A stretch of DNA of 21,356 nt from a virus, in the IMG/VR virus record IMGVR_UViG_3300009164_000415, positions 1 to 21,356 of that record, one strand, 5' to 3'. Of the stretch, positions 2,714 through 18,035 are shown one piece after another (within the stretch, counting starts at the first letter, position 1; each line of letters starts with the position of its first letter). The position numbers and the translations under genes are program-made. A model generated the notes under the pieces. That model was given only the letters and a program-made list of their open reading frames with translations. It did no database searches and was not told where the DNA came from.

Positions 2714-2716
2714 ATA
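2710..2716 (+). promoter_or_regulatory. CTAAATA box, possible late-type promoter ahead of the hsp20 leader
   Basis: CTAAATA overlaps the stop codon of the preceding gene. The same heptamer occurs 28-30 nt before three genes in the last third of the window, and it resembles the T4 late -10 element TATAAATA. Transcription starting some 6-8 nt downstream would put the whole hairpin region 2726-2828 into the 5' leader of hsp20. Without a -35 element, this rests on the box alone. Confidence 0.35.
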
Positions 2717-2725
2717 GTTTTATTG

Positions 2726-2828
2726 GCTTCACCTTAGGACCGCTAAGTAACGAAGCGTATAAAGCGGATACGACGTACGGTATCGCTGGAATCGTAACCA
2801 GCAAACTCTATGCTCAATTGAGGTAGAG
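2726..2828 (+). promoter_or_regulatory. Structured RNA leader: four consecutive hairpins upstream of hsp20
   Basis: The 147 nt between the 69-aa gene and hsp20 hold four stems in a row. (1) GCTTC 2726-2730 with GAAGC 2752-2756, enclosing CTTAG 2733-2737 with CTAAG 2743-2747. (2) GATAC 2767-2771 with GTATC 2780-2784, extendable as AGC/GCT (2763-2765 with 2785-2787) past one bulged G. (3) GCTGG 2785-2789 with CCAGC 2798-2802, 8-nt loop. (4) CTCTA 2806-2810 with TAGAG 2824-2828, with CTC/GAG (2813-2815, 2820-2822) inside. A competing stem, CGTAT 2756-2760 with ATACG 2768-2772, excludes stem 2. All pairs were read by eye. Likely roles are a cis-acting leader of hsp20 (regulator, thermometer or stabiliser) or a separate small RNA. 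The Shine-Dalgarno AGGAG at 2850-2854 is left unpaired. Confidence 0.5.
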
Positions 2829-2860
2829 TATTTTATAACCTCGCTTAATAGGAGAAAACC

Positions 2861-3358
2861 ATGGGAAACACATTTCCAAATATTGCATTGTTCGGTCAAG
2901 GTTTCAAAGACTTTGATAAATTTTTTGTTGGTTTTGAAGACTCTGCGCAACATCTGCAGAAACTACATGATGATCTAACCAAAAACATCCCCAACTACCC
3001 ACCATATAACATTCGTAAGAATGATGAAAATCATTACACGATTGAAATTGCTGTCGCTGGATTTGGTGAGTCAGAAATTGACATTACCATTGATGGTGGC
3101 AAATTAATTGTAAAGGGTAATGTGGATAGTGCGACCGATGCATTGGAAGACAATTTCTTGTTTAAAGGAATAGCTACTCGAGCATTTACTCGAGCCTTTG
3201 CTATTGATGACCACATTGAAGTTAAAGATGCAGAGTACTTTAATGGAATGCTTAAAATTGCTTTGGAGCGTATGATTCCAGACGAAAAAAAGCCAAAGAA
3301 AGTTAAGGTAAACTCTAGAACTGGTAAACAGTTACTAAAGGAAGATGCAGATGAATAA
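2861..3358 (+). CDS. hsp20: Small heat shock protein Hsp20 (alpha-crystallin family)
   Basis: 165 residues; ATP-independent chaperone of the IbpA type that holds unfolding proteins as oligomers. The alpha-crystallin domain spans about residues 45-150: YTIEIAVAGFGESEIDI, then GGKLIVKGN, the FLFKGIATRAFTRAF segment typical of IbpA (IAxRxFxRxFxL), and FNGMLKIALER with the C-terminal strand. The tail is lysine-rich (KKPKKVKVNSRTGKQ). An excellent ribosome binding site (AGGAG, 6-7 nt before ATG 2861) sets the start. Hsp20 genes are common in marine T4-like phages, often near regA and gp43 as here. The gene has its own unusual structured leader and is followed by a UUCG terminator, so it probably forms an independent transcription unit with the possible 28-codon gene. 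Confidence 0.96.
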   Translation: MGNTFPNIALFGQGFKDFDKFFVGFEDSAQHLQKLHDDLTKNIPNYPPYNIRKNDENHYTIEIAVAGFGESEIDITIDGGKLIVKGNVDSATDALEDNFLFKGIATRAFTRAFAIDDHIEVKDAEYFNGMLKIALERMIPDEKKPKKVKVNSRTGKQLLKEDADE

Positions 3359-3437
3359 CTTTTTTAAATATTGTAAAGATATATGCTATAGCATATTTGT
3401 TGGAATTGAGAAATATAGGTCTCGTAAAAAGAACTAA
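3351..3437 (+). CDS. Possible 28-residue small protein overlapping the hsp20 end
   Basis: ATG 3351 lies 8 nt inside the 3' end of hsp20, with AAAGGAAG (3337-3344) at the right distance, and the frame runs 28 codons to TAA 3435-3437. The product (MNNFFKYCKDICYSIFVGIE, then a basic tail KYRSRKKN) is an aromatic, hydrophobic helix with a strongly positive C-terminus, so it could be a small membrane-associated peptide. It fills the space up to the terminator at 3455. Evidence for it is the ribosome binding site and the overlap; the length is too short to exclude chance. Confidence 0.4.
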   Translation: MNNFFKYCKDICYSIFVGIEKYRSRKKN

Positions 3438-3454
3438 TATTCAAAATGTGGTAA

Positions 3455-3480
3455 AATAGAAAGTCTTCGGACTTTCTATT
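3455..3480 (+). terminator. UUCG-capped hairpin, probable terminator of the hsp20 unit
   Basis: A perfect 11-bp stem (AATAGAAAGTC 3455-3465 with GACTTTCTATT 3470-3480) closes the very stable tetraloop TTCG (3466-3469). C(UUCG)G hairpins are the usual loops of T4 intrinsic terminators and mRNA-stabilising elements. The following tract (TATTGTTC) is only moderately U-rich, so termination may be partial. It separates the hsp20 unit from the next gene. Confidence 0.75.
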
Positions 3481-3496
3481 GTTCATAAATAAACGT

Positions 3497-3724
3497 ATGA
3501 ACAATAAAGCAAGATACTTTCCAAACATGACTACCTTCACTGCCGTTAGGAGGGGAGAGTGGCGTTTCAAAGTATCTGTGTGTGGTAATAAGTTTGTTCT
3601 TATTGTTGCACAACATGTATATAATGGAGATGCTATTATTAAATACTTTACTACTTTTATAGACGCATCTAATTTTATTGATGCATTAGTTGAACAGGAT
3701 AATCATGACAGTAAAAATATTTAA
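3497..3724 (+). CDS. Small hypothetical protein upstream of the Sm-like gene
   Basis: 75 residues from ATG 3497. No family recognised. The sequence has a compact mixed alpha/beta look: GEWRFKVSVCGNKFVLIVAQ gives two strands, followed by a helix (DASNFIDALVEQ). None of the possible starts (TTG 3479, ATG 3497, ATG 3527) has a clear Shine-Dalgarno. CATAAATA at 3484-3491 resembles a late promoter but would start transcription at about the ATG. The end overlaps the next gene by 20 nt, which supports translation. It lies just after the UUCG hairpin. Confidence 0.65.
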   Translation: MNNKARYFPNMTTFTAVRRGEWRFKVSVCGNKFVLIVAQHVYNGDAIIKYFTTFIDASNFIDALVEQDNHDSKNI

Positions 3725-3998
3725 AATGATCAATGGTGAAGTACTCATTGCTCATATCATTACCACAGAACATGGATCAGGTCATCATGTGGTTGAAAAT
3801 GCAGCAACCATCGCCATACAAGAAAAGAATGGGAGTGTTGGTGTTGGACTTGCTCCGTACATGCCATATGCTTCTGCAAGAATTAATCTCAGAATAAATG
3901 CAATTGCATCAGAAGGTGATCCAGATCGCCAACTTGAAAATGAATACAGTAGACTCTTTGGGTCTGGTATTGTACTTGCAAACATAGTACCAAACTAA
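3705..3998 (+). CDS. Putative Sm-like (LSm/Hfq-type) small protein
   Basis: 97 residues from ATG 3705, chosen over TTG 3690 because AGGAT lies 4-8 nt upstream. The order of segments suggests a small five-stranded barrel: KIFKMINGEVLIAHII (strand-turn-strand, like the Sm1 start), NAATIAIQEKNGSVGVGLAPYMPYAS, INLRINAIAS, then a helix RQLENEYSRLFG and a final strand SGIVLANIV. Small proteins with this KxxxGEVLIA...GVGLxPYMPYA...YxxxFGSGIV pattern are, as I recall, widespread in marine T4-like phages and have been likened to the Sm fold; the assignment is tentative. If correct, it may bind AU-rich RNA. It overlaps the previous gene by 20 nt and is followed by the dexA promoter. Confidence 0.8.
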   Translation: MTVKIFKMINGEVLIAHIITTEHGSGHHVVENAATIAIQEKNGSVGVGLAPYMPYASARINLRINAIASEGDPDRQLENEYSRLFGSGIVLANIVPN

Positions 3999-4001
3999 TC
4001 C

Positions 4002-4030
4002 TTTACTTTTTTCCTACTTTAAGGTATAAT
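4002..4030 (+). promoter_or_regulatory. Sigma70-like promoter for dexA-gp43
   Basis: -35 TTTACT (4002-4007), 17-nt spacer, -10 TATAAT (4025-4030). It is one of four promoters in the window that share CTTTACTT and the perfect -10 at the same spacing. A start near 4037 leaves a leader of about 19 nt with TAAGGA before ATG 4056. The -10 lies inside an inverted repeat, GGTATA (4023-4028) with TATACC (4035-4040). Confidence 0.8.
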
Positions 4031-4055
4031 AAAATATACCTAAGGAATATTCATT

Positions 4056-4622
4056 ATGTTTATGTTTGATATCGAAACTCTTGGAGTAGAATCTACTAGT
4101 GTGATTCTTTCTGCTGCTCTCATTCATTTTGAGATTGGTAAAGATTACACTTATGAAGAACTACTCGAGAATTCACTATTTGTCAAGATAAATGTTCAGC
4201 AACAAATCAAAGAACTAAAACGTGTGGCGCAAAAAGACACCATTGATTGGTGGGGTAAACAACATGAGCATGTTCGTAACGTAAGTCTAAAGCCATTACC
4301 CTTAGATATATCTCCACTAGAAGCAGTGCGCTCTCTGCGTGAATATGCTTCTCAGTTTCCAGAGAAAGATCAAACAATTTGGGCACGTGGTTCTCTTGAT
4401 CAAATGTGTATAGATTCTTTGACAAGGCAACTTGACCAAGAACTAATTTTCCCTTATAATAACTGGAGAGATATGCGTACTGCCATTGACCTGTTAAAAG
4501 ATACAGGAAAGAATGGTTACTGTGATATCATCCACCCAACTTTTAAATCACACAACGTCATTAAACATCATCCCGTACATGACTGTGCGCTTGATATAAT
4601 GATGCTGATCTATGGAAAATAA
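4056..4622 (+). CDS. dexA: DexA-type 3'-5' exonuclease (DnaQ fold)
   Basis: 188 residues. Predicted DEDD exonuclease related to T4 DexA (exonuclease A, about 227 aa), a non-essential 3'-5' DNA exonuclease. Exo I motif FDIET gives D5 and E7; D115 in WARGSLDQ fits Exo II; H175-D176 and D180 in VHDCALDIMM fit the Exo III HD...D pattern. T4 DexA has matching blocks TIEWW (TIDWW here), WCRGMSFD, NQRDIRT (NWRDMRT) and HDCAKDILM. The protein is shorter than T4 DexA at the C-terminus. It is the first gene of a unit with its own promoter and TAAGGA ribosome binding site, and its stop overlaps the polymerase start by 1 nt (TAATG), so the two are translationally coupled. Confidence 0.88.
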   Translation: MFMFDIETLGVESTSVILSAALIHFEIGKDYTYEELLENSLFVKINVQQQIKELKRVAQKDTIDWWGKQHEHVRNVSLKPLPLDISPLEAVRSLREYASQFPEKDQTIWARGSLDQMCIDSLTRQLDQELIFPYNNWRDMRTAIDLLKDTGKNGYCDIIHPTFKSHNVIKHHPVHDCALDIMMLIYGK

Positions 4623-7108
4623 TGTATACAAACATCTATCAATATGGTAGTAAAATGCTGGTTCGTGGTTATGATGTTAAAGGAAACCAGTACAAACGCA
4701 AAGAAGATTTTCAACCTACAATCTTCGTTCCTTCAAAGACCCCAACAGATTACAAAACGCTTCAGGGTAATTACGTAGCATCATTACATCCTGGATCTAT
4801 GCGTGATACTAAAGAATACATCGATCGTTATAAAGACGTAGAAGGTTTCGAGATTTATGGAAATAATAATTTTGTTTCTCAATATATTTCTGATAACTTC
4901 AAAGGTGAATTGAAGTTTGATATTGAAAAGATTCGTATCTGGACTATCGATATCGAGACCAGTACCGAGTCTGGGTTCCCCAATATGAAAACTGCCAATG
5001 AAGAGATCCTTCTTATTACGTTGCAAGACAATGCGACAAAGAGAGTGATTACCTTTGGTAGTAAACCCTATGCTAATACTGATAAGAATGTTCAATATCG
5101 TTATTCCACAAACGAACTTGATTTGCTTCGAGAGTTTATCAACTATTGGTCATTGAACACACCAGATATTGTTACTGGTTGGAACTGTAATCTGTTTGAT
5201 ATTCCATATCTTATCCGTCGTATTGATTCAACTCTAGGCGATACCTACAGTAAGAAACTATCACCATGGGAAAGTATTCGTGAGAGTACTATTACCATTC
5301 GTGGTAATGAAGAGACTGCTTATGACATTCATGGTGTCGCTGTTCTAGATTACCTTGACCTCTATAAGAAGTACACCTACTCTGCTCAAGAATCATATCG
5401 CTTAGATCACATTGCATTTGTTGAACTTAATGAACGCAAGAAAGAAAATCCAGGTAACTCGTTCAAAGAATTCTACACTGATTATTGGAAAGAGTTCGTT
5501 GAGTATAATATACAAGACGTGGGATTGGTAGATAGACTCGAAGACAAGATGAAGTTGATTGAATTGCAAATTACCATGGCGTATAATGCTAAGATCAATT
5601 ATGAAGATGTGTTCTCACAGGTACGTATGTGGGATGCCATTATCTATAATCACTTACGTGACAAAGGTATTGTCATACCGCAGAATAACTCCAGTCGAAA
5701 AGACTCTCAGTTTGAAGGTGCGTTTGTTAAAGACCCCATCGTTGGTATGCATAAGTGGGTTGCTTCCTTTGACTTGAACAGTCTGTATCCTCACCTAATT
5801 ATGCAATATAATATCTCTCCCGAAACATTGCTTCCTGGTAAGATGAATGTCACTGTTGACCAGTTGCTAAACAAAGAGATTAATACTACAATGTTGAAGG
5901 AAGAGAACATTACGCTGACTGCCAATGGCATCTCATATACTAAAGAGAAACAAGGATTCCTACCTGCAGTTATGGGGGAGATGTATAATAATCGTTCACG
6001 TTTTAAGAAGCAGATGTTAAAGGCACAACAAGAATATGAACATGATAAGAAGAACAATGACCTACGCAAAGAGATTAGTCGACTGAATAATTTGCAGATG
6101 GCTATGAAGATTGCATTGAACTCTGCTTATGGTGCTTTGGGTAATCAATATTTCCGTTACTTTGATGTCCGTATGGCTGAGGGTATCACAACATCTGGTC
6201 AGCTGTCTATTCGTTGGATGGCGAATAAGTTAAACATCTTCATGAACAAGACATTAAAAACTACTGACAAAGATTATGTCATTGCTATTGATACTGATTC
6301 AATCTATCTTACCTTTGAAGATCTCGTTGAGCAGACCTGTGTTGGTAAAGATACTAATCAAAAGATTGCTTTCATGGATAAGATCTGTGAAGATGTATTC
6401 CAACCATTCATCGACAAAGGTTATAGTGAACTCGCTGAGTATATGAACGCATATGATCAAAAGATGCAGATGAAGCGAGAAGTTCTAGCCGATAAGGGAT
6501 TGTGGACTGCAAAGAAACGATATATACTTAATGTTCATAACTCTGAGGGTGTTCAGTATGCAACACCAAAGTTAAAAGTTATGGGTCTTGAGATGGTAAA
6601 GTCGTCAACACCACAGATCATCCGTAACAAGTTGAAAGAATCAATTAATGTTATTCTTGAGGGCGACCAGTCTGCTTTGCATAAATTTATTATTAACTTC
6701 CGTAAAGAGTTTAATCAATTGCCAGTTGAACAGATTGCATTTCCTCGTTCTGTTAATAATCTTCAACAATATACTTCTTCATCAAATATCTATGGTAGTG
6801 GTACTCCGATGCATGTAAGAGGTGCTTTACTTTACAATCACTATCTCAAGAAGAATAATCTTGAAGGTAAGTATCCTCTTATTCGAGAAGGTGAAAAGAT
6901 TAAATTTGTTTATTTAAAAGTGCCGAATATCATTCAAGAAAACATTATCTCTTTTACTAATGAGTTGCCAAAAGAGTTGGATCTACATAGATATGTAAAC
7001 TATGACCTTCAATTTGAAAAAGTATTTCTCGATGCAATACAAATTATTATTCAATCTTTAGGTTGGGGTGTTGAAGAGAAAGCATCACTGGAGAGTTTCT
7101 TTGGTTAA
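4622..7108 (+). CDS. 43: DNA polymerase gp43 (family B) with 3'-5' proofreading exonuclease
   Basis: Replicative polymerase, 828 residues against about 898 in T4. The proofreading domain shows WTIDIETS (D110, E112) and GWNCNLFDIPYLI (Exo II). Polymerase motif A is FDLNSLYPHLI (D384), motif B KIALNSAYGALGN (496-508) and motif C AIDTDSIYL (D557, D559), so all catalytic carboxylates are present. The KLKVMGLEMVKSSTP block of the thumb follows. The last residues, KASLESFFG, resemble the C-terminal peptide of T4 and RB69 polymerases that docks on the sliding clamp. It starts in the dexA stop codon, and the next gene begins inside its last eight bases. A family B enzyme complete in all motifs, with no intein or split. 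Confidence 0.98.
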   Translation: MYTNIYQYGSKMLVRGYDVKGNQYKRKEDFQPTIFVPSKTPTDYKTLQGNYVASLHPGSMRDTKEYIDRYKDVEGFEIYGNNNFVSQYISDNFKGELKFDIEKIRIWTIDIETSTESGFPNMKTANEEILLITLQDNATKRVITFGSKPYANTDKNVQYRYSTNELDLLREFINYWSLNTPDIVTGWNCNLFDIPYLIRRIDSTLGDTYSKKLSPWESIRESTITIRGNEETAYDIHGVAVLDYLDLYKKYTYSAQESYRLDHIAFVELNERKKENPGNSFKEFYTDYWKEFVEYNIQDVGLVDRLEDKMKLIELQITMAYNAKINYEDVFSQVRMWDAIIYNHLRDKGIVIPQNNSSRKDSQFEGAFVKDPIVGMHKWVASFDLNSLYPHLIMQYNISPETLLPGKMNVTVDQLLNKEINTTMLKEENITLTANGISYTKEKQGFLPAVMGEMYNNRSRFKKQMLKAQQEYEHDKKNNDLRKEISRLNNLQMAMKIALNSAYGALGNQYFRYFDVRMAEGITTSGQLSIRWMANKLNIFMNKTLKTTDKDYVIAIDTDSIYLTFEDLVEQTCVGKDTNQKIAFMDKICEDVFQPFIDKGYSELAEYMNAYDQKMQMKREVLADKGLWTAKKRYILNVHNSEGVQYATPKLKVMGLEMVKSSTPQIIRNKLKESINVILEGDQSALHKFIINFRKEFNQLPVEQIAFPRSVNNLQQYTSSSNIYGSGTPMHVRGALLYNHYLKKNNLEGKYPLIREGEKIKFVYLKVPNIIQENIISFTNELPKELDLHRYVNYDLQFEKVFLDAIQIIIQSLGWGVEEKASLESFFG

Positions 7109-7640
7109 AAATATTAGATTAGTTAGAAGCAATATTGATGTTAGCAAGATACTTGCAGAGATTAACAAGTATCCTAGCGACTGGGATATGCAAAAGAAAC
7201 TGGAGAATGCTGACCAGAATCATGAACTACAAGTGTCAGTACTTCAGTTAGTAATTGGAGCAGTAAAAGAAGCTGGTGAGCATCCAAAAGATAGTGAGTT
7301 GTCAGTTAAGACACCAATCTATAAAAAATATACGGAGACTCGTCGTTGGCTCCGCAAGAATGGATGCGCAAATTTTCATCGCCTCGCTTTTCTTAAACTT
7401 GCGATTGGTAATAGTGTCGGAACACATATTGATGAAGGTAGTTACTATCTTACAAGAGACCGATACCATTTATCAATACAAGGAGAATACAAATACAAAG
7501 TTGGAGACCAAGAAGTTATTATCAAACCTGGAACATTCTTTTGGTTTAATAATAAAGTACCCCATGGTACTCTGAATGTTGGAAATGAACCTAGAATTAC
7601 AATGGTTTTTGATTTGCCACATTCTGCTTCAAATCCATAA
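7101..7640 (+). CDS. Aspartyl/asparaginyl beta-hydroxylase-like Fe(II)/2-oxoglutarate oxygenase
   Basis: 179 residues from TTG 7101, which has GGAG at 7090-7093 and overlaps the polymerase stop; a TTG at 7068 would add 11 residues without a good binding site. The C-terminal half is a double-stranded beta-helix: GTHIDEG (H109), RYHLSIQG (H123), PGTFFWFNNKVPHGTLN (H155) and EPRITMVFD (R165). This order (first His, R-x-H, N...H, Arg) is that of the Asp/Asn beta-hydroxylase family, whose members hydroxylate side chains of proteins and use a two-His iron site. Substrate unknown. Several marine phages carry such oxygenases near replication genes. It could act on a protein or, less likely, on a nucleotide-linked substrate of the modification island downstream. 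Confidence 0.8.
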   Translation: MVKNIRLVRSNIDVSKILAEINKYPSDWDMQKKLENADQNHELQVSVLQLVIGAVKEAGEHPKDSELSVKTPIYKKYTETRRWLRKNGCANFHRLAFLKLAIGNSVGTHIDEGSYYLTRDRYHLSIQGEYKYKVGDQEVIIKPGTFFWFNNKVPHGTLNVGNEPRITMVFDLPHSASNP

Positions 7641-7648
7641 TTACATGC

Positions 7649-7677
7649 TTTACTTAAAAAGAATTATCAGGTATAAT
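7649..7677 (+). promoter_or_regulatory. Sigma70-like promoter for uvsX-gp41
   Basis: -35 TTTACT (7649-7654) within CTTTACTT, 17-nt spacer, -10 TATAAT (7672-7677). Start expected near 7684, giving a leader of about 20 nt with AAAGGA (7694-7699) before ATG 7704. A three-codon frame (ATG AAA GGA TAA, 7691-7702) lies in the leader and overlaps the binding site, probably by chance. Confidence 0.8.
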
Positions 7678-7703
7678 TATATAATACTCCATGAAAGGAT
7701 AAC

Positions 7704-8777
7704 ATGAGCATACTAGACAAAATTAAAAAGAACACAACTATCAAGGATTCTTCTGTCCTTGCGACATCAAAATTCTTTCAGAAGAAAGATATGATACCCA
7801 CTTCGATTCCTGCTATCAACGTAGCATTGAGTGGTCGTCTTGATGGTGGCTTAACTCCAGGACTCACAATGTGGGCTGGTCCAAGCAAACACTTTAAGAC
7901 TGCCTTCAGTTTATTGATGGCTAAATCTTACATGGACAAATATGAAGATGCTGCACTACTCTTTTATGACTCTGAGTTTGGTACTCCTCAGTCTTACTTT
8001 GACAGCTTTGGTATTGATACAAACCGAGTTATTCATACTCCGCTTACAAATGTTGAACAGTTGAAGTTTGATATCATGCAACAACTCGATGGTGTTGAGC
8101 GTGGCGACCATTTAATCATTGTTATTGATTCGATTGGTAATCTGGCTTCAAAGAAAGAAGTTGAAGATGCCATGGAAGGCAAGTCTGTTGGCGACATGAC
8201 TCGTGCGAAACAGATGAAGAGTTTGTTCCGTATGATTACACCTCACCTAAATCTGAAAGACATTCCCTTGGTTGTAGTTAATCATACCTACATGGAGATT
8301 GGCTTATATCCAAAGGCAATCGTTGGTGGTGGCACTGGCTCGTACTACTCAGCTGATAATATCTTTATCCTTGGTCGTCAGCAAGAAAAAGATGGTACTG
8401 AACTAATGGGTTATAACTTTATTATCAACGTAGAGAAATCTCGTTATGTTCGTGAGAAAGCGAAGATACCTGTCACTGTTATGTTTGATGGAGGTATATC
8501 TAAGTGGTCTGGTCTGCTTGAGATGGCACTTGAGTCTGGTCATGTAGTTAAACCTTCTAATGGTTGGTACTCACGTGTTGATAAATCCACTGGTGAAATA
8601 GAAGAAAAGAAGTGGCGTATTAAAGACACTGACACAAAAGAATTTTGGCTACAGGTTCTAATGGATAAATCTTTTCAACAGTGGGTAACTGAAAACTATC
8701 AGATATCATCTGGATCTATTATGCAAAATATGGATGATGATGAAATTGAAAAAGAACTAGCAAAGATCGATGATTAA
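7704..8777 (+). CDS. uvsX: UvsX recombinase (RecA family)
   Basis: Strand-exchange protein of T4-type recombination-dependent replication and repair; 357 residues (T4 about 390). Walker A is GPSKHFKT at 59-66, the unusual form seen in UvsX rather than RecA's GPESSGKT; LLFYDSEFGTP (86-95) holds the catalytic glutamate; Walker B is IIVIDSI with D142. The DNA-binding L1/L2 region follows: MTRAKQMKSLFR, PLVVVNHTYMEIGLYPKAIVGGGTG. The C-terminal tail is acidic (MDDDEIEKELAKIDD), as in RecA and UvsX. It heads an operon with the 99-aa gene (8-nt overlap) and gp41. Confidence 0.97.
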   Translation: MSILDKIKKNTTIKDSSVLATSKFFQKKDMIPTSIPAINVALSGRLDGGLTPGLTMWAGPSKHFKTAFSLLMAKSYMDKYEDAALLFYDSEFGTPQSYFDSFGIDTNRVIHTPLTNVEQLKFDIMQQLDGVERGDHLIIVIDSIGNLASKKEVEDAMEGKSVGDMTRAKQMKSLFRMITPHLNLKDIPLVVVNHTYMEIGLYPKAIVGGGTGSYYSADNIFILGRQQEKDGTELMGYNFIINVEKSRYVREKAKIPVTVMFDGGISKWSGLLEMALESGHVVKPSNGWYSRVDKSTGEIEEKKWRIKDTDTKEFWLQVLMDKSFQQWVTENYQISSGSIMQNMDDDEIEKELAKIDD

Positions 8778-9069
8778 ATATACATTTGTTGAGAAAGCTG
8801 AGGCGACTGGTGAATATACCGTCGCCTTAAAGTTTTTGGAAGGTAAGTATGAGGGAATGGTGTTCTCATATGGCAAAGTCGAATTCAAAGAACATGGTGA
8901 CGAAGATGCCGTTACTTTAAAGTTTGACTATGAGATACATAAGAATCCTGGAAACATTGACACCTTTGATAAAGACGAGGTAGAATATATTTTAGGTGGA
9001 TTCCTTCAAGAACTTATCAAAGAGCAGGTTGAAAAGAAAGAAATAATTTACACTGGTGGAACTGATTAA
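8770..9069 (+). CDS. Conserved small protein between uvsX and gp41, unknown function
   Basis: 99 residues. No recognised domain. The sequence looks like a small beta sheet (IKYTFVEKAEATGEYTVALKF, GMVFSYGKVEF, AVTLKFDYEI) followed by a helix EVEYILGGFLQELIKEQVEK. It starts within the last codons of uvsX (ATGATTAA) and its stop overlaps the gp41 start (TAATG), so the three are translated as one coupled unit. The position between recombinase and helicase suggests a replication or recombination accessory, which is inference from context only. Confidence 0.8.
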   Translation: MIKYTFVEKAEATGEYTVALKFLEGKYEGMVFSYGKVEFKEHGDEDAVTLKFDYEIHKNPGNIDTFDKDEVEYILGGFLQELIKEQVEKKEIIYTGGTD

Positions 9070-10457
9070 TGCGAATTGAAAAAACGATTCTTTCGAATCT
9101 TGTACATAATGAACAGTATTGCCGTAAGACTTTACCCTTCGTAAAGATTGATTATTTCTCTGATCGTACAGAGAAAATGGTTGCTGATGAGATTACAAAG
9201 TTTTATGAAATCTATAACAAACCAATCACATTAGAAATACTTGCTATTCAGTTAAGTAATCGAACTGATATTTCTACAGATATTAAAGAAATTGATACAT
9301 ATATTAATGAATTGGTTTTAACAGAAACAAATGAAGACTGGTTGATTCTAGAAACTGAAAAGTTTTGTAAACAGCGAGCAGTATATAATGCTATTCTAGC
9401 ATCAATCAAAATTATTGAAGGTAAAGATGACAAACGTAACCAAGAGGCTATTCCCAGCTTACTTTCTGATGCACTTGGTATTAGTTTCGATCGTCATGTT
9501 GGCCATGATTATCTTGAGGATTTTGATGGTCGTTATGATTTTTATCATAGACTTGAAGAGAAGATTGCTTTTGATTTGGAACTCTTTAATAAAATCACCA
9601 AAGGTGGGCTCTCAAAGAAAACACTAAACGTAGCATTGGCTGGTACTGGTGTTGGTAAATCTTTGTTCATGTGTCACTTTGCTGCTTCAACTTTGATGCA
9701 GGGATTAAATGTATTATACATAACTATGGAGATGGCAGAAGAACGTATCGCTGAACGTATTGATGCGAATCTTCTTAATCTTGGTATGGATGAACTGAAG
9801 GTTATCGACAAAGATATTTTCACTAATCGTATTGTAAAGGTTCAACAGAAAACACAGGGTAAACTAATCATCAAAGAATATCCAACTGCCTCTGCGCATA
9901 CTGGGCACTTTCGTTCTTTGCTTGAAGAACTAAAACTCAAACGTGACTTCCTCCCTGATGTTGTTATTATTGATTACCTTAATATCTGTGCAAGTCAACG
10001 TATGAAGATGGGCGCCAGTGTAAACTCTTATACATATATAAAGAGCATAGCAGAAGAATTGCGTGGTCTTGCAGTTGAGTATAACGTACCTTTGCTGTCG
10101 GCAACTCAGACTACTCGGTCTGGTTTTGCAAATACTGACGTAGAATTAACTGATACATCTGAATCATTTGGATTGCCAGCCACCTGTGACTTTATGTTTG
10201 CGTTAATGACCAGTGAAGAACTGGATGCGTTGGGTCAGATTATGGTTAAGCAGTTGAAGAATAGATATGCTGATCCAAATTATTATAAAAGATTTGTTGT
10301 AGGTATTGACAGATCGAAGATGAGGCTTTATAATGTAGAAGTGAGTGCGCAAGCGAATATCTCTGATGCTGGAACTGATGATGGTCCAGTATTTGATAAG
10401 TCTGACTTTGGTAAAAGACTACATAGTAATAAGAGTTTCGAAGGATTTAAATTCTAG
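9069..10457 (+). CDS. 41: Replicative DNA helicase gp41 (DnaB-like)
   Basis: Hexameric 5'-3' helicase that unwinds the lagging-strand template and works with the primase; 462 residues (T4 about 475). An N-terminal helical domain (1-150) precedes the RecA-like motor: Walker A AGTGVGKSLF (K197), the catalytic glutamate region YITMEMAEERIAERIDANLL (about 218-237), Walker B DVVIIDYLN (D302) and the SATQTTRSG sensor block, then an RSKMRLYNVEV strand with the arginine-finger region. It is the last gene of the uvsX unit, and the hypermodification island starts 8 nt later with its own strong ribosome binding site. No primase gene (gp61) is in the window. Confidence 0.96.
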   Translation: MRIEKTILSNLVHNEQYCRKTLPFVKIDYFSDRTEKMVADEITKFYEIYNKPITLEILAIQLSNRTDISTDIKEIDTYINELVLTETNEDWLILETEKFCKQRAVYNAILASIKIIEGKDDKRNQEAIPSLLSDALGISFDRHVGHDYLEDFDGRYDFYHRLEEKIAFDLELFNKITKGGLSKKTLNVALAGTGVGKSLFMCHFAASTLMQGLNVLYITMEMAEERIAERIDANLLNLGMDELKVIDKDIFTNRIVKVQQKTQGKLIIKEYPTASAHTGHFRSLLEELKLKRDFLPDVVIIDYLNICASQRMKMGASVNSYTYIKSIAEELRGLAVEYNVPLLSATQTTRSGFANTDVELTDTSESFGLPATCDFMFALMTSEELDALGQIMVKQLKNRYADPNYYKRFVVGIDRSKMRLYNVEVSAQANISDAGTDDGPVFDKSDFGKRLHSNKSFEGFKF

Positions 10458-10465
10458 GAGAAGAT

Positions 10466-11797
10466 ATGGTAAAGGTTATTGTAGCAAAACAGAAATATGA
10501 TTGTTCTGATAAAGGATTAGACCTCGCTGGTAAATTTGTTGATGAATCACATTATGATTTATTGATAGAAGAAGATTGTGATGTCTATATGCCAGTGCCT
10601 TATGGCACAGATCCAATTAATGAAAGTAATATAGTATTAAAGTTTCGCAAGAATTATTTCACTAAAGAGCAGCAAGACGCAGCTTACTTTGGCTTAAAAG
10701 AAGCTGCCACTCGTACTGAGAATCGTGGTCTTGCTTCTGGTATTAGAGATGGCATTGTTGCTTCAGAGGAAAGTCGTGAATGGGTAACTAATTATCAAGA
10801 CGAGATGATGCAAGAGATATTAATCAATCGCACTTCAGACCTCTATGGCGATAGTGATGTTATTGATGAAGTCCGTGCCAAGTATCCAACAGAAGCCGAC
10901 AGAAAAATGGCTGGTGGTTCTGGTAAAAATAACGTATGGGTAATTTCTCGCTATCGTAATGGGAAATTCGATTTTGAACAATGGATTGACAGTATTAAAC
11001 CATTAAAAAAAGAAGCAAGAGCCATTGCAACTGAAACTGTTATGGATATGATTAGTGTAACAACTTATGGGTCTCCAGTTAATTCTGGTATTGCTGGGTG
11101 GTTTGATAGATATCCTAGAATTCCTTATGGACGTGCGACTTCTTATACACGGGATAATTTTGAAAAATTTAAAATGTCATATCCATTTCTTCAGCAGTTG
11201 GCAGTCGGCTTTAAAGATTTATTGCCTGAAAGATATTCCAATCAGATGAGTGCTGCAAGTAAATTAGATTCGAGGTATCTAGTTCCAGAAACTCCATTTA
11301 CTACTATTACAGTAAATAAAACATTTCGGACTGCGGCACACTATGATGCTGGTGATTTAACAACTGGCTTATCAAACTTACTAACATTATCAAATGATGG
11401 TAAATATACTGGTGGGTATTTAATTGCGCCTGAGTATCGCATTGCAGTTAATCCACGTCCAGGCGATCTTCTACTAATTAATAACCATGAAGTTATGCAT
11501 GGCAATACTCCTATTGTTTGTGAAGAAGGATCCGAGCGCATATCACTTGTAGTATATTTCCGTGAAAAGATGCTAGAACTTGGTTCATATGAATATGAAG
11601 AATGTCGTTATGAGTTTGTTGAATCGCGAAGATTAAATAAAGAACATGCTATGCAGAGAAAATTGTGGAATGGAATTTCTGAAGGTATGTGGGAGTCAGA
11701 AGAGTGGTATAATTTCTGCCGAAATAAACTTGGAGAAGAAACGCTATTAAAGTATCATACAAATTCAAATCGTTCTACTCTTGAGGAATTCTTTTGA
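10466..11797 (+). CDS. TET/JBP-family DNA pyrimidine dioxygenase (Fe(II)/2-oxoglutarate)
   Basis: 443 residues. Predicted to oxidise the 5-methyl of thymine or 5-methylcytosine in DNA to hydroxymethyl. The core is in the C-terminal half: TFRTAAHYDAGD holds the HxD iron motif (H292, D294), the strand GGYLIAPEYRIAVNPRPGDL follows, then NNHEVMHGN supplies the distal His (H345) and SERISLVVYFREK the 2-oxoglutarate arginine (R358). The HxD with AGD, the GDLLLxNN and the EVMHGN context are those of phage TET/JBP proteins. Residues 1-200 are an extra N-terminal region of unknown fold. TAGGAGA precedes ATG 10466. The next gene starts with TTG inside the stop codon, so the two are coupled. A general 2OG oxygenase acting on small molecules is the main alternative; the company of a hmU-kinase-like gene argues for DNA. 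Confidence 0.8.
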   Translation: MVKVIVAKQKYDCSDKGLDLAGKFVDESHYDLLIEEDCDVYMPVPYGTDPINESNIVLKFRKNYFTKEQQDAAYFGLKEAATRTENRGLASGIRDGIVASEESREWVTNYQDEMMQEILINRTSDLYGDSDVIDEVRAKYPTEADRKMAGGSGKNNVWVISRYRNGKFDFEQWIDSIKPLKKEARAIATETVMDMISVTTYGSPVNSGIAGWFDRYPRIPYGRATSYTRDNFEKFKMSYPFLQQLAVGFKDLLPERYSNQMSAASKLDSRYLVPETPFTTITVNKTFRTAAHYDAGDLTTGLSNLLTLSNDGKYTGGYLIAPEYRIAVNPRPGDLLLINNHEVMHGNTPIVCEEGSERISLVVYFREKMLELGSYEYEECRYEFVESRRLNKEHAMQRKLWNGISEGMWESEEWYNFCRNKLGEETLLKYHTNSNRSTLEEFF

Positions 11798-13041
11798 ACA
11801 TACTATTATATGACTTAGATTTATCTAAGTACACTGACTGGAGATTACCAGAGAATCGGTTAGAAGCATTTAGGAGAGTTGCCTTTACTAGAATGGCTGA
11901 GGGCGATTTAGATCATTGGCATTCTGGTCATGTTATTTCTTCAGAAATGAATTTAACAAAAGAGCAGAAAGCAGTATATGCTTTAGTGTTTGGGCAGTCG
12001 TATAGGAATCATTGGGCGATGATTGTTATGCAAAAATTCCCTGATTTACTAAACACAGACCCAAGACATATTAAAGAATGGCATGACAATATTTGGAAGA
12101 AAGCGCATTATGCCAAAGACACTAAATGGGGTCTTCGTAAATTTCCAGAGTATATTGAATCAATCAAACTGAAAGTTGGTGGAAGTGCCTATGATTATCT
12201 TGAACAGAAGTCTACAGTTGGTAACACAAAGGAAAACTTCTATTCATTGAACGAAGGTATTAGAGAGTTCTTTGGTATTGGAAGAATGACTGCTTGGCTC
12301 GCTCAGCAAACTATATACGAGTTCTTTAATTTTGATATTGATCATTGGGATTTGCAGTTGTATGATGATACATGGTCTCAATATGATTCTTTGTGTTATC
12401 TATTTAACAGAGAAGATATATCAACAAAAAGAGAACTTGGCAGAGCAAAACCAAATCTTGAAGAAGTACAACTTATGGAAAAAAACTTTCAGACATTAAT
12501 GAAATATTGTAATGATAACAGTTTATTACATTTAGATGTTTATAATATGGAATCGTGTTTGTGTGAGTTTAGAAAAACGTGTGGTTCTAGTGGAAGAAAA
12601 CCAAAGGAATTTACAGGATGGACTACTGTTGAGTTAAGTGATGAGTATGATAAGATATCTTCCAAATGGCCAGAGGTTGATTGGAAACCTTACGTTGCTG
12701 GTTTGATGACAAAGGGTAGATACCTTAGTGACTTCTCAATTAATCCAGAATACTTTAGAGTTATGGTTGACTATGGTTTAAATTTAAACACACATTACTA
12801 CTTTAAAGATGAGCCAAATGCTCATGACCTCCTTGAACTAAAACAGGTACAGTCTACTGGTATAAAAACTACTTATGCAGATTGGAATTCTAAATTTACT
12901 GAGACTGAAAGATTGCAATTAATACAAAAGCATAATCCAATTAAGTATAATAGGATAAAGCCAAAGACGCATCCTGCTTGGAAAGACACTAATCTAATCT
13001 TGCAAAATGCAATTTTAAATCAGAATCCACCTTTACTTTAA
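11794..13041 (+). CDS. HhH-glycosylase-fold base-hypermodification protein (aGPT-PPlase/AADT/HMUDK_hel type)
   Basis: 415 residues from TTG 11794, which has GAGGAA (11783-11788) and overlaps the dioxygenase stop by 4 nt. REFFGIGRMTAWLAQQ (157-171) has the G-I-G-R-x-T-A signature of a helix-hairpin-helix as in DNA glycosylases, followed by acidic/aromatic DIDHWDLQLYDDTW. Residues 252-268 (MESCLCEFRKTCGSSGR) resemble the LCEFdK...GrgKpR segment that I associate with the glycosylase-like enzymes of thymidine hypermodification (alpha-glutamyl/putrescinyl-thymine pyrophosphorylase, amino acid:DNA transferase, and the helical domain called HMUDK_hel). Those proteins replace a (pyro)phosphorylated hydroxymethyl group on thymine with a nucleophile. 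The identification is from remembered motifs; the exact subfamily and the attached group are unknown. Confidence 0.6.
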   Translation: MNILLYDLDLSKYTDWRLPENRLEAFRRVAFTRMAEGDLDHWHSGHVISSEMNLTKEQKAVYALVFGQSYRNHWAMIVMQKFPDLLNTDPRHIKEWHDNIWKKAHYAKDTKWGLRKFPEYIESIKLKVGGSAYDYLEQKSTVGNTKENFYSLNEGIREFFGIGRMTAWLAQQTIYEFFNFDIDHWDLQLYDDTWSQYDSLCYLFNREDISTKRELGRAKPNLEEVQLMEKNFQTLMKYCNDNSLLHLDVYNMESCLCEFRKTCGSSGRKPKEFTGWTTVELSDEYDKISSKWPEVDWKPYVAGLMTKGRYLSDFSINPEYFRVMVDYGLNLNTHYYFKDEPNAHDLLELKQVQSTGIKTTYADWNSKFTETERLQLIQKHNPIKYNRIKPKTHPAWKDTNLILQNAILNQNPPLL

Positions 13042-13060
13042 ATAGAATATGTAGTATAAT
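13032..13060 (+). promoter_or_regulatory. Sigma70-like promoter for the inositol-synthase/HAD/kinase unit
   Basis: -35 TTTACT (13032-13037), 17-nt spacer, -10 TATAAT (13055-13060). The -35 overlaps the end of the upstream coding region. Transcription should begin near 13067, so the ATG at 13067 would have no leader; with the start at 13148 the leader is about 80 nt and contains GGCAG/CTGCC (13070-13074 with 13098-13102). Confidence 0.75.
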
Positions 13061-13147
13061 ATAGTTATGGGCAGCTACCTCTATCCGAGCCAATATCCTG
13101 CCTTGGTCTACACAAAACCTAAAACAACTGAAATGAAAAAGGAATGT

Positions 13148-14425
13148 ATGAAAAAAATCAAAGTTGCAATCGTGGGCGTAGGTTCTTGCGCCAAATCCCT
13201 AGTAGAAGGTGTTCAATATTACGTTGAGAATCCAGACGATCAGGTTGGGTTATCATACCCAGACATTGGTGGCTACACTGTTAAAGATGTAGAATTCGTT
13301 TGTGGATTCGATGTTGATATCAGAAAAGTAAATAGACCTTTAGAAGAAGCAATCCGTGCCAGACCAAATTGTTCTATGAATCACGTGGAAAAGATTAGCG
13401 ATGCTTGTATCGCAAAGGGTGCTTTAGTATATTCTGGTCCAGAACTAGATGGTGTTGCGCCTCACATGTTAGACTACCCAGAGGAAATTTCCTTTAGAAC
13501 TGGAGCAATTCCTGCTGAGTCCTTTGAGCGTGTTGTTGAATTGTTAAAGTATCATAAGGTAGATGTTGTTATTAATTACTTACCTGTTGGATCACATTTG
13601 GCATCTAAATTTTATATTGATGCTGCCGTTGAAGCCAAGTGTCACTTTGTTAATTGTATTCCAACTTTCATCTCAACTGATGAAACACAGATTGTTGAGC
13701 AAAGATTTATCAATGCTGGTTTAACTATTGTTGGTTCAGATATGCGGTCTGGCTTTGGTGCTTCTAGATTGTCTGAGATATTACAAGGCGCAATGATTGA
13801 TTCTGGTCTAATGGTTACCCAACATATTCAAATGAATATGGCTGCTGGTTCAACTCAGGGTCAGGAAAATATCAGAACTGGTAGAAGTGCTAATACAGAT
13901 TTCTTAAACATGGCAAAGGAATATCGCTTAGAGTCAAAGCATATTTCAAAGGAAAATGTTATCAAAGGGCAGAACTCTGTTCGAGATACTTCCATTGAAG
14001 GTATGACTCTTTATGCTGGTCCAAGTTTGACAGTCCTTCAGAAACCAGGAGGAACATATGTTAATTCTGATAATAAGATCGCAAATTTAGATTTAGTTGC
14101 TTATGGGTTTGCTGGTGCACGTTATGAATTATCTGCTAGACTCTCAGTTCAAGATTCTCCGAACTCTGGTTCTGTTGTAATCTCGGCACTTAGATTCTGT
14201 AAGGTTGCCTCTGAACTTGGAATTGTAGGTTTCCTTCGTGGTGCGTCACATATTACACAAAAGACTCCACCACTACAAATGAAAATGCAAGATGCTAAAT
14301 TTGAATGTGATGCTTTGGCAAGACGTATTGTTACACCTCTTACTGAACCGCAACTAAAGCGTAACAATCCAGTCGCTAAGGAACTCCCATATACCTTTCA
14401 AAAATCAGTGAGTGATTATAAATGA
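13148..14425 (+). CDS. myo-Inositol-1-phosphate synthase family protein (INO1-like)
   Basis: 425 residues from ATG 13148. The family converts glucose 6-phosphate to inositol 3-phosphate with NAD as internal cofactor. Visible: Rossmann start VAIVGVGSCAKSLVEG (from residue 6), SDMRSGFGASRLSEIL aligned with the DxKSGxTxLxS block, ANTDFLNM (about 248-255; family GNxDxxNL/NM), ESKHISKENVI matching the RSKEISKSxVI catalytic segment (K264, K268), and QDSPNSGSVVISALRFCKVA aligned with the DSPxSAGxVIDxxRxxK block. The lysine of DxKSG is replaced by arginine. I prefer 13148 (AAGGA at 13139-13143) over ATG 13067, which lies at the expected transcription start and adds 27 residues unlike the family; ATG 13133 is a second option. 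Stop overlaps the HAD gene by 4 nt. Confidence 0.85.
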   Translation: MKKIKVAIVGVGSCAKSLVEGVQYYVENPDDQVGLSYPDIGGYTVKDVEFVCGFDVDIRKVNRPLEEAIRARPNCSMNHVEKISDACIAKGALVYSGPELDGVAPHMLDYPEEISFRTGAIPAESFERVVELLKYHKVDVVINYLPVGSHLASKFYIDAAVEAKCHFVNCIPTFISTDETQIVEQRFINAGLTIVGSDMRSGFGASRLSEILQGAMIDSGLMVTQHIQMNMAAGSTQGQENIRTGRSANTDFLNMAKEYRLESKHISKENVIKGQNSVRDTSIEGMTLYAGPSLTVLQKPGGTYVNSDNKIANLDLVAYGFAGARYELSARLSVQDSPNSGSVVISALRFCKVASELGIVGFLRGASHITQKTPPLQMKMQDAKFECDALARRIVTPLTEPQLKRNNPVAKELPYTFQKSVSDYK

Positions 14426-14826
14426 ACTCCTTTGATATAGATGGAGTTATATACATAGACAAAAAGAATAACGGAGTGTTCCCTGGAAAAGATGATGTTA
14501 TAATTACAGGTAGATCTTTCGAGGAACGTCCAGAAACTTTGTCTATGTTAAACGCAAGAGGCATATATAATGTGGTGCATTTTAATCCTATGAAGTTTGA
14601 TGCGAAGACTAGAGAATCTTCTGGTATACATAAAGCACTTGTTTTGAATAAGTTAAAAACCGAAGGAACTACTATTGGTATTCACTTCGAAGATGATGAA
14701 ATTCAAATAGAGCAAATTAAAAAATACTGCCCTTGGGTTAATGTTGTTCATATGGTTCATGAACTTACTAATAAAGAAAATGTTAGGCATTCTGAAACCG
14801 ACTATCATTTAAGACATCTGGAATAA
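14422..14826 (+). CDS. Small HAD-superfamily phosphatase-like protein
   Basis: 134 residues. HAD motifs are complete in a minimal form: motif I FDIDGVI (D5, D7), motif II IITGRS (T29), a lysine in SSGIHKALV (K71) and motif IV HFEDDEIQ (D91, D92). There is hardly any cap domain, as in small phage or polynucleotide phosphatases. It overlaps the inositol-synthase stop (ATGA) and precedes the P-loop kinase by 2 nt, so it is made together with both. By context it could dephosphorylate inositol phosphate or a phosphorylated base intermediate; the sequence does not distinguish these. Confidence 0.78.
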   Translation: MNSFDIDGVIYIDKKNNGVFPGKDDVIITGRSFEERPETLSMLNARGIYNVVHFNPMKFDAKTRESSGIHKALVLNKLKTEGTTIGIHFEDDEIQIEQIKKYCPWVNVVHMVHELTNKENVRHSETDYHLRHLE

Positions 14827-14828
14827 TT

Positions 14829-15371
14829 ATGAAGAAACTGATTGCTGTTGGCGGTAGACCTGGAACTGGTAAAACTACACTATTCCGCAAATTTATGGAA
14901 GATAAAACATGGGAGAGGGTTGAGCCAAGCAAAACTCTTTCTGCATTGTATTCTAAAGAATTAGATCTTTATGTCCTAGGTAAATATGAGGATGGTGAAG
15001 TTTTCGCTGGAACTGATAGGCTGTCAATGGCAGTTCAGCCAGTTGCGCAAAGTTTCGTCTCTGAAACCACTTCAAATATCCTATTTGAGGGTGATCGCAT
15101 ATTCAATCAGAGTTTCCTAGAGTTTGCCATGAATACCCCAAATATAGATCTTCAGATATTATATCTTAAAGTGCCCGAAGAAACTCTCAAAACTAGATAC
15201 GTTGAGAGGGGTTCTGATCAATCTGAGACTTTCTTAAAAGGAAGAGCGACTAAATATAATAATCTGCTGTCAAACTTCGAGTTGGCTCCATATATTACAG
15301 AGTTTGTAAACACTAATTTAGAGGAACAAACGAAAATTCTTGCATTTATGGACTCTCATTTGAAGAAGTAA
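14829..15371 (+). CDS. P-loop kinase of the 5-hydroxymethyluracil-DNA-kinase type
   Basis: 180 residues. Walker A GRPGTGKTT (9-17, K15) opens the protein. Further blocks are VLGKYEDGEVFAGTDRLSMA (50-69), ILFEGDRIFNQSFL (Walker B-like, with D in GDR), an LKVPEETLKTRY strand-lid region and the basic RGSDQSETFLKGRATKYNNLL segment. I associate the GKY...F.GTDRLSMAVQP and FEGDR pattern with the P-loop kinases encoded next to base-hypermodification genes, where they phosphorylate hydroxymethyluracil in DNA to activate it. Here it is a free-standing domain, while the helical partner is the 11794 gene. It ends the block. Alternative: a nucleotide or small-molecule kinase such as an inositol-linked one. 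Confidence 0.72.
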   Translation: MKKLIAVGGRPGTGKTTLFRKFMEDKTWERVEPSKTLSALYSKELDLYVLGKYEDGEVFAGTDRLSMAVQPVAQSFVSETTSNILFEGDRIFNQSFLEFAMNTPNIDLQILYLKVPEETLKTRYVERGSDQSETFLKGRATKYNNLLSNFELAPYITEFVNTNLEEQTKILAFMDSHLKK

Positions 15372-15402: not shown

Positions 15403-16104
15403 ATGACTTTCCTAGAGACTGCAAATTTCGACTGGATTGAGATGCTCAATTTCTATGAGCGTCCATTTAAAGCCAAACTAATTCCATCTCAAATTTGGAA
15501 AGATCTAGACAAATATAAGAATGATTCGTCTGGACTGTCTAATTATGTCAAAAAATGGCGCACGAAATTAATCTGGATAAAAGTACTTCCAAAGAAAAAA
15601 TCCTACGAAAAAAATGTATATGTAGCTGGTGAATATGCGCCAGAAAATCGACAGTGCGCTCTTATAGTTTATGCTCGCGATTTTAATACATTTGAGTTCG
15701 ATACAGTAAAGTGGAATAATTTTAAGTTTCGAATTATTCAAACTCTAATGCATGAGGTCATTCACTTCATGCAGTACGACCGAAGATGCGATGAGTGGAG
15801 CAACTATATTGTTCCCTATAAGAAGGTCGGTATTGCCAAGAAAGATGCCGAGAGACGATACCTCTCTGAATTTGATGAGATTCAGGCATATGCTCACTGC
15901 GTATTTTTAGACTACAAAATGCGTAAACCACGAGTCCCAATAGAAACTCTGCTGGCTCGATGCAAAACGCATAAAGATTCATCCACCCTTCACTATGTCT
16001 TAAAGACATTCAACTACGACTTCACTAACAATGGAGCTCCTCGGAAAATCATTGACCAAATCGGTAAATGGGATAGGAAGTATTCCAAGCGTAATCTTGC
16101 CTAA
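15403..16104 (+). CDS. Predicted zinc metallopeptidase (HExxH)
   Basis: 233 residues. The zincin motif HEVIHFMQYD gives H117, E118 and H121; a conserved-looking SEFDEIQAYAH (155-165) 35-45 residues later offers E156 or E159 as third ligand. An N-terminal region of about 100 residues has no recognised fold, and the C-terminus is lysine/arginine-rich. Metalloproteases of this kind occur, as I recall, as unassigned proteins of marine T4-like phages; the substrate is unknown. Start is uncertain: ATG 15403 has no Shine-Dalgarno and falls within a TATAAT sequence; ATG 15442 (Met14) is an alternative. It separates the modification block from the late-type genes. Confidence 0.75.
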   Translation: MTFLETANFDWIEMLNFYERPFKAKLIPSQIWKDLDKYKNDSSGLSNYVKKWRTKLIWIKVLPKKKSYEKNVYVAGEYAPENRQCALIVYARDFNTFEFDTVKWNNFKFRIIQTLMHEVIHFMQYDRRCDEWSNYIVPYKKVGIAKKDAERRYLSEFDEIQAYAHCVFLDYKMRKPRVPIETLLARCKTHKDSSTLHYVLKTFNYDFTNNGAPRKIIDQIGKWDRKYSKRNLA

Positions 16105-17420: not shown

Positions 17421-18035
17421 ATGTTAGGGTTTAAAGAATACTTGTTGGAAGAAACTGGAACTGGAAGTCTATCGATTTTCGATATTGACGACACTCTTTT
17501 TCACACCACAGCTCAGATAGCAGTAGTCAAGGATGGTAAGGTTGAGAAGAAATTGACCAACCAAGAATTTAACAACTACAAACTTGATGCTGGTGAATCT
17601 TTTGACTTCTCGGAATTCCGTGATGCTCATAAATTCTATCATGAGTCAAAACCAATCGGTAGAATGTTAGCCAAAGCGAAAGCAATCTTGGCAAATTCAC
17701 AGAAAAATCCTCAGAGTAAAGTTATCATTATCACTGCCAGAGCAAACTTTGACGACAAGGAAAAGTTTCTAGCAACCTTTCGCAAGTATGGTTTCGATAT
17801 CGACAAGGTTCATGTTGAACGTGCAGGTGAGTTAGAGGGTAACGAAATTCCAGCTGTTAAGAAAGCAATCATCGTAAGTAAGTATCTAAGTACCAAACAG
17901 TTTGGTAAGATAAGATTGTTCGATGACTCAATGAGTAATCTGAAAGAATTCTTAAAGTTAAAAACTAAATTTGATGAGGTACAGTTTGAAGCATACTTCG
18001 CTTTACCGAATGGTTCAATTAAGACTATTAAGTAA
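17421..18035 (+). CDS. HAD-family phosphatase with capsid-targeting-like N-terminus
   Basis: 204 residues. After an N-terminal MLGFKEYLLEE, which resembles the T4 capsid-targeting sequence (MKTYQEFIAEA), comes a HAD fold: motif I FDIDDTLF (D21, D23), motif II IIITARA (T105), a motif III lysine in AVKKAII (K147/K148) and motif IV LFDDS (D168, D169). The DIDDT form and the cap of about 75 residues are like phage polynucleotide 3'-phosphatases and similar enzymes. In T4 the targeting peptide is cleaved after (L/I)xE by the gp21 protease; LLE (8-10) would be the site here. Its stop overlaps the next gene by 1 nt. Substrate unknown; perhaps DNA ends. Confidence 0.8.
   Translation: MLGFKEYLLEETGTGSLSIFDIDDTLFHTTAQIAVVKDGKVEKKLTNQEFNNYKLDAGESFDFSEFRDAHKFYHESKPIGRMLAKAKAILANSQKNPQSKVIIITARANFDDKEKFLATFRKYGFDIDKVHVERAGELEGNEIPAVKKAIIVSKYLSTKQFGKIRLFDDSMSNLKEFLKLKTKFDEVQFEAYFALPNGSIKTIK

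Follow-up and report, generated by a model that had tools for sequence, protein, structure and literature searches.

A five-gene island in a T4-like phage is almost certainly devoted to DNA hypermodification, and inositol is the likely attached group. The stretch analysed, referred to here as the window, is the full IMG/VR record IMGVR_UViG_3300009164_000415 (21,356 bases), and the island spans positions 10466 to 15371, where five open reading frames (ORFs) lie head to tail on one strand, overlapping or 2 to 25 nucleotides apart, as a sequence-only reading of the window had described. The five genes probably form a closed pathway to an inositol-bearing hypermodified thymine, with each reaction, substrate, and linkage predicted rather than observed. 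Most decorations known from phage DNA are sugars, amino acids, or amines. The whole block recurs in many contigs as both near-identical and diverged copies, so the island is not a chance assembly; comparison of the island with phage records at the DNA level found no similarity. The five proteins show no sign of decay, and their catalytic motifs are intact and conserved. The genes are as follows.

10466 to 11797, plus strand: TET/JBP 2-oxoglutarate (2OG)/Fe(II) dioxygenase (TET), 443 amino acids (aa), from PF12851 (E = 2.2e-23) and motifs
11794 to 13041, plus strand: ADDT-family transferase, 415 aa, TTG start, from PF18724 (E = 3.8e-07) and a modelled DNA-glycosylase/glycinyltransferase fold
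13067 to 14425 (start possibly 13148), plus strand: INO1, myo-inositol-phosphate synthase, 452 aa, from PF01658 (E = 4.7e-08) and similarity to 1GR0
14422 to 14826, plus strand: capless HAD phosphatase (HAD), 134 aa, from motifs, a modelled fold, and linkage to INO1
14829 to 15371, plus strand: P-loop kinase of the Ploopntkinase3 family, 180 aa, from PF18751 (E = 1.3e-10) and pairing with ADDT

In the proposed pathway, TET would hydroxylate the methyl group of thymine in DNA to give 5-hydroxymethyluracil (5hmU), and the P-loop kinase would phosphorylate the 5hmU hydroxyl in DNA to give 5-phosphomethyl-2'-deoxyuridine (5-PmdU). INO1 would convert glucose-6-phosphate to inositol phosphate, HAD would release inositol from it, and ADDT would replace the base-linked phosphate by an inositol hydroxyl, so that a methylene (ether) bridge would connect inositol and base. 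Some INO1 cassettes have inserted genes for FkbM methyltransferases and for GT4 or TAGT glycosyltransferases, whose products would decorate the inositol further. Thymidine hypermodification via phosphorylated 5hmU is already known (PMC6449724), and the same paper describes aminoethoxymethyl-deoxyuridine in phage ViI, an oxygen-linked substituent, which suggests by analogy that an oxygen-linked product is possible in such chemistry.

TET scores 82.8 bits against Tet_JBP (curated Pfam cut-off, 34.9), and the HxD/H/R dioxygenase motifs picked out in the sequence-only reading correspond to the metal and 2OG residues H292-x-D294, H345, and R358, which show 97% or higher conservation across 114 unique relatives. 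Thymine is favoured over 5-methylcytosine (5mC) as its substrate, on indirect support, because no C5-methyltransferase was found in either Caulobacter phage Cr30 (complete) or contig L074 (131 kb), both of which carry TET cassettes. Oxidation of 5mC, leaving hydroxymethylcytosine as the decorated base, would fit the many TET enzymes that act on 5mC as well as the relatives of the INO1-HAD pair that encode a T4-like dCMP hydroxymethylase (type B, below). A host methyltransferase could possibly supply the 5mC, and a Caulobacter control genome has a PF00145 match, but ADDT and the kinase, its partners, both fall in families of thymidine hypermodification enzymes, and a cytosine substrate is very unlikely. 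A dUMP hydroxymethylase acting at the level of the nucleotide pool was found neither in the window, which is a fragment, nor in L074, and Cr30 encodes a full-score thymidylate synthase. Phage TET/JBP dioxygenases are deposited as 'SNF2 DNA repair protein' (phage records DLP6, Cr30, and S-CBWM1; L083:10001-11347 and L002:6691-8019), and the HAD of Menderavirus (L001:13350-13721) as a phosphoribosyltransferase or polynucleotide kinase; these misannotations hide such cassettes.

The kinase at 14829 scores 41.6 bits against Ploopntkinase3 (cut-off, 27), its P-loop, GTD, and EGDR motifs are conserved in 100 relatives, and in a kinase-based scan an ADDT gene lies upstream in all 47 loci with enough upstream sequence. 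The sequence-only reading had called it an hmU-DNA-kinase-like protein, which agrees with this family and pairing, but it is not of the canonical two-domain form: PF18723, the helical domain of the canonical 5hmdU DNA kinase, is absent from the window kinase, Cr30, and L074. A search of PDB sequences with the kinase gave nothing useful.

The protein at 11794, with a TTG start codon that overlaps the TET stop codon, scores 30.5 bits against ADDT (amino acid:DNA transferase; curated cut-off, 26.2). Its AlphaFold model (mean predicted local distance difference test [pLDDT] score, 79.5) most closely resembles PDB entry 8z2n (Z = 15.7; root mean square deviation, 3.5; 246 residues aligned), the 5-PmdU glycinyltransferase gp46 (PUGT) of phage PaMx11, followed by a DUF2419 queuosine salvage enzyme (Z = 9.7) and DNA glycosylases (Z ∼8). 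The match was obtained with a structural aligner applied to Foldseek's candidates; Foldseek alone with the model against the PDB returned nothing significant, and an ADDT profile searched against PDB sequences returned nothing relevant. The model thus predicts an ADDT-family enzyme of glycinyltransferase fold, in keeping with the hypermodification role that the sequence-only reading gave this helix-hairpin-helix protein, and the structural comparison places it inside the hypermodification families, with 8z2n first. The outcome named in that reading as its refutation thus did not arise for this protein, and all testable parts of the reading held. This nearest solved relative acts on 5-PmdU, which is what a 5hmU DNA kinase should produce. 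Treatment of ADDT and HMUDK_hel (PF18723) as one family was not supported (profile comparison probability, ∼1%), and the two are kept separate.

The island lies in an exchangeable slot running from the gp41 helicase gene to that of a HExxH protein, and in related slots TET directly follows gp41 and opens the slot. Its borders in the window are as follows.

9069 to 10457, plus strand: gp41-type replicative helicase, left border (DnaB_C, E = 2.2e-16), which precedes TET in complete slots
15403 to 16104, plus strand: conserved HExxH protein, right border, which closes 76 TET slots

Pfam and PHROG searches with the HExxH protein gave no family above cut-off. A TET-based scan of viral contigs recovered 103 TET loci. 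Among 51 complete slots (TETs differing by at least 2%), an ADDT-type gene and the kinase are present together in 36, and both are missing from the other 15, which have a glycosyltransferase; when de-replicated at 90% identity, 22 slots have ADDT and kinase and 11 have a glycosyltransferase with neither (Fisher P = 5e-9, uncorrected for kinship). Their joint presence or absence across slots, together with the pairing in 47/47 loci of the kinase-based scan, indicates that the kinase and ADDT work together, in steps that substitution requires and direct glycosylation does not. The decoration genes of the 103 TET loci fall into exclusive sets, with a set of glutamine amidotransferase, amidoligase-like, and GNAT genes in 36, a glycosyltransferase in 36, and INO1 in 20, with no overlap, and no set seen in 11. 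INO1-HAD therefore stands in for the attached-group enzymes, occupying the place where other phages keep the builders of that group.

Several variant cassettes are of note in their own right. A TET-amidotransferase-amidoligase-like-GNAT-ADDT-kinase cassette that occupies this slot (L143:8847-14546, L191:11302-14946, and about 30 other loci), and in L143 also includes a B12-binding radical SAM protein, is a separate, apparently peptide-like DNA hypermodification route. TET also occurs with a single GT4 glycosyltransferase, or with a GT-like protein and a different small HAD, with no kinase or ADDT (L139:11320-12669 and L185:7777-9230), and phages of this type carry a probable glycosylated hydroxymethyl pyrimidine. 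TET, two ADDT-like proteins (343 and 280 aa), and a kinase occur with no recognised decoration genes in L180 (4987-6968) and L178, and a GIY-YIG-like ORF on the opposite strand between ADDT and INO1 (L007:9255-9851; also L006 and L021) is probably a homing endonuclease.

The assignment of INO1, already made from its motifs, is borne out by a score above the cut-off for Inos-1-P_synth (PF01658; 33.6 bits against 27) and by whole-length homology to the Mycobacterium tuberculosis inositol-3-phosphate synthase 1GR0 (E = 1.6e-53). Residues K291, K295, D335, K337, D363, K379, and K399 align with the active-site Lys and Asp residues of 1GR0 and are retained in eight diverse sequences, with the window, Cr30, and Menderavirus all keeping them. 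The INO1 family also takes in, at a lower score, a five-membered cyclitol-phosphate synthase (6k96). Translation may start at an internal ATG at 13148, a start proposed because most relatives begin there. The nearest clearly cellular relatives are Sediminibacterium-type enzymes (56 to 59% identity), which have the same 15-residue insert as the window lineage; INO1 falls into two deeply separated lineages, one having this insert and the other lacking it, and both are linked to base-modification genes.

HAD has no Pfam match, and PDB sequences gave nothing useful, but it matches the PHROG of T4-type polynucleotide kinase/phosphatase (8e-09). The minimal HAD motifs noted from sequence are kept in 22 diverse relatives as D5-x-D7, T29-G30-R31, K71, and E90-D91-D92, with the Asp, Gly, Arg, and Lys positions invariant and T29 and E90 in at least 90%, and the model (pLDDT, 88.4) has the capless form of a Rossmann-like fold. 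A role as an inositol-phosphate phosphatase is proposed from its fixed linkage to INO1.

INO1 and HAD form a fixed pair. In a first scan of 80 INO1 loci, HAD is present in 77 and ADDT or HMUDK_hel lies within four genes in 76, the other four hitting contig ends; among unique INO1 loci with both flanks, HAD is downstream in 49/49 and a base-modification gene is within four genes in 49/49. A HAD-selected scan placed INO1 just upstream in 70 of 73 further loci, some on contigs already in the INO1 scan, and among 50,697 phage records INO1 and HAD occur in the same 18, Cr30 and Menderavirus with duplicates counted.

The sequence-only reading could not place the combination with INO1 in any described pathway. 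The neighbourhoods now largely resolve this puzzle, since the pair occurs both with TET, ADDT, and kinase and with two other, unrelated base-modification systems, and INO1 as maker of the attached group is a consistent explanation. The type A chassis (the window and Cr30) comprises TET, ADDT, and kinase and would act on thymine. Type B, the commonest in viral contigs, comprises a dCMP hydroxymethylase-like protein, a dCMP deaminase, INO1, HAD, a PF18723 protein, and a phrog_13881 protein, often with a C5-cytosine methyltransferase. Its hydroxymethylase is most similar to that of T4 (3e-66) and keeps the Asp of the NDYAW motif, which is Asn in two T4 entries (6l18 and 6a9a); from these sequence features, type B relatives probably modify cytosine. 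Type C has the 7-deazaguanine genes FolE, TGT/DpdA-like, and QueC in varying subsets around INO1-HAD (L097, L230, L249, and L262), and the Menderavirus version adds QueE, with INO1-HAD inside a FolE-QueC-TGT-like-QueE cluster. The TGT/DpdA-like protein has no Pfam match and its Menderavirus homologue no PDB sequence match, and its putative role is assigned from GenBank annotation and from its FolE, QueC, and QueE neighbours. In 11 long records TET and PF18724 never occur alongside PF18723 or a divergent hydroxymethylase; at one locus of lesser length, L234, an ADDT gene and an HMUDK_hel gene are found together.

Other features of these chassis include the phrog_13881 protein itself, which has a GDSHS motif and is associated with cassettes of type B (L064:12799-13779 and about 79 loci), and phrog_17781, which joins a phrog_13881 protein to a region matching the HMUDK_hel protein. 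In the type C locus L097, the gp41-type helicase (2684-4519) has about 150 extra residues at its P-loop, an insert resembling an intein, and on the other strand a TnpB-like ORF separates the TGT-like gene from INO1 (6563-7834).

These associations bear on whether INO1-HAD could be an auxiliary metabolic module of the ordinary sort, serving lipid synthesis, osmoprotection, or takeover of the host, and lie beside DNA-modification genes by chance. Bacterial INO1 relatives do make inositol for lipids (PMC9246714), and the Menderavirus INO1 has been described as bacteria-like and acquired, with no connection drawn to DNA modification (PMC9025141). The same report, on phage Ps15, treats the que genes chiefly as tRNA modification genes and mentions deazaguanine in DNA. 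However, all 49 unique two-flank loci adjoin base-modification genes, the linkage extends to three kinds of such genes over all loci, it is shared by two or more divergent INO1 lineages that differ in having or lacking the 15-residue insert, and no HAD was seen next to INO1 among the cellular relatives examined. A metabolic module is highly improbable, and INO1 as a lone metabolic passenger was rejected on its linkage to HAD and base-modification genes.

The INO1 and ADDT trees differ in the number of chassis switches they require. To explain the three chassis, the INO1 tree requires roughly 15; its supported branches make a minimum of 10 unavoidable for the type A label, and its long branches call for caution. 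The ADDT tree requires one: a single branch with full support divides all 30 INO1-linked ADDTs from the 61 linked to amidotransferases. This fits inositol as the transferred group, since a portable inositol module with a dedicated transferase group is the pattern then expected. The same tree bears on whether ADDT could instead add an amino acid, as in PaMx11, with inositol used separately as a glycosyl or methyl acceptor or joined to the amino acid. The namesake of the family and its solved homologue do transfer amino acids, and the glycosyltransferase and FkbM genes of some INO1 cassettes would suit such acceptor roles. Addition of an amino acid is nonetheless quite unlikely: the INO1-linked ADDTs group apart from the amidotransferase-linked ones and show fixed differences from them (DLDH versus DCDP and GRM versus GRY, among others), INO1 never shares a TET cassette with amidotransferase or amidoligase genes, and the window cassette and many relatives have five genes only, leaving no enzyme for joining inositol.

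An arrangement closer to the proposed pathway would retain a phosphate, with inositol phosphate, or inositol via the phosphate, joined to 5hmU, and with HAD trimming or editing phosphate on the DNA or the adduct. Mycobacterial inositol lipid synthesis takes inositol phosphate directly (PMC9246714), and HAD, although always with INO1, is assigned to the INO1 product from that association. Its closest folds are the 3'-phosphatase domains of PNKP (Z ∼12), which act on nucleic acid ends. Against this, HAD also accompanies INO1 in types B and C, where no Ploopntkinase3 was seen, so that its constant partner is INO1 and not phosphorylated thymine, and the solved ADDT relative takes 5-PmdU as its substrate. 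Retention of the phosphate is unlikely.

Besides the fold of HAD, several considerations weigh against free inositol as the group transferred to thymine. The characterised ADDT homologue uses glycine and not a polyol, the INO1 tree was built quickly and contains long branches, and the loci behind the neighbourhood counts cannot be taken as independent events. At 21 kb the window is a fragment from which further pathway genes may be missing, and the literature consulted gave no DNA chemistry for any of these phages.

The proposed system resembles those of phages M6, ViI, phiW-14, and PaMx11 in having a 5hmU handle, phosphorylation in DNA by a P-loop kinase, and substitution by an enzyme of glycinyltransferase fold. 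It differs in that the handle would be made in DNA by TET, whereas theirs is made in the nucleotide pool; in that the kinase is a single-domain Ploopntkinase3 protein, whereas theirs has two domains; and in having INO1-HAD in place of their amino acid-processing enzymes. With the base J pathway and TET-associated glycosyltransferase systems it shares a TET-made, further decorated hydroxymethyl pyrimidine, but here the hydroxyl would be kinase activated and substituted, in contrast to sister phages that have, in the same slot, a direct glycosyltransferase without kinase or ADDT. Cr30 has all of TET, ADDT, INO1, HAD, and kinase, although its genes are spread over about 9 kb and include a TAGT-like glycosyltransferase; Menderavirus (Stenotrophomonas) shares INO1-HAD but has 7-deazaguanine genes and no TET or ADDT. 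The phage INO1 is related to M. tuberculosis Ino1 over its whole length, with aligned active-site residues, but unlike bacterial inositol-phosphate synthases it was not seen beside lipid genes here and is constantly linked to a capless HAD and to genes for DNA modification. A literature search found no paper tying inositol to phage DNA modification, and an earlier mention in Iyer et al. 2013 or Lee et al. 2018 is possible.

Two further genes of the window lie outside the island. An aspartyl/asparaginyl beta-hydroxylase-like 2OG oxygenase between the DNA polymerase and UvsX genes (7068-7640) is conserved in about 40 loci, and a second small HAD-like protein (17421-18035; DIDDTLF) weakly matches a polynucleotide kinase PHROG.

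As for function, we infer that the island serves escape from restriction. If its reading as an inositol pathway is true, a made-to-order polyol would be a new chemical class of phage DNA decoration, and the recurrence of INO1-HAD with thymine, cytosine, and deazaguanine systems suggests a portable decoration module. More tentatively, and with somewhat less confidence than doubt, INO1-HAD-derived inositol may be a general-purpose phage decoration placed on thymine, hydroxymethylcytosine, and 7-deazaguanine and sometimes glycosylated or methylated, which, if proved for the three chassis, would make it a new class of DNA modification. The analysis re-labels phage TETs, offers a role for INO1 genes so far read as stray bacterial acquisitions, and points to possible enzymes for polyol labelling of DNA, and the cultured phages Cr30 and Menderavirus make the inositol reading testable.

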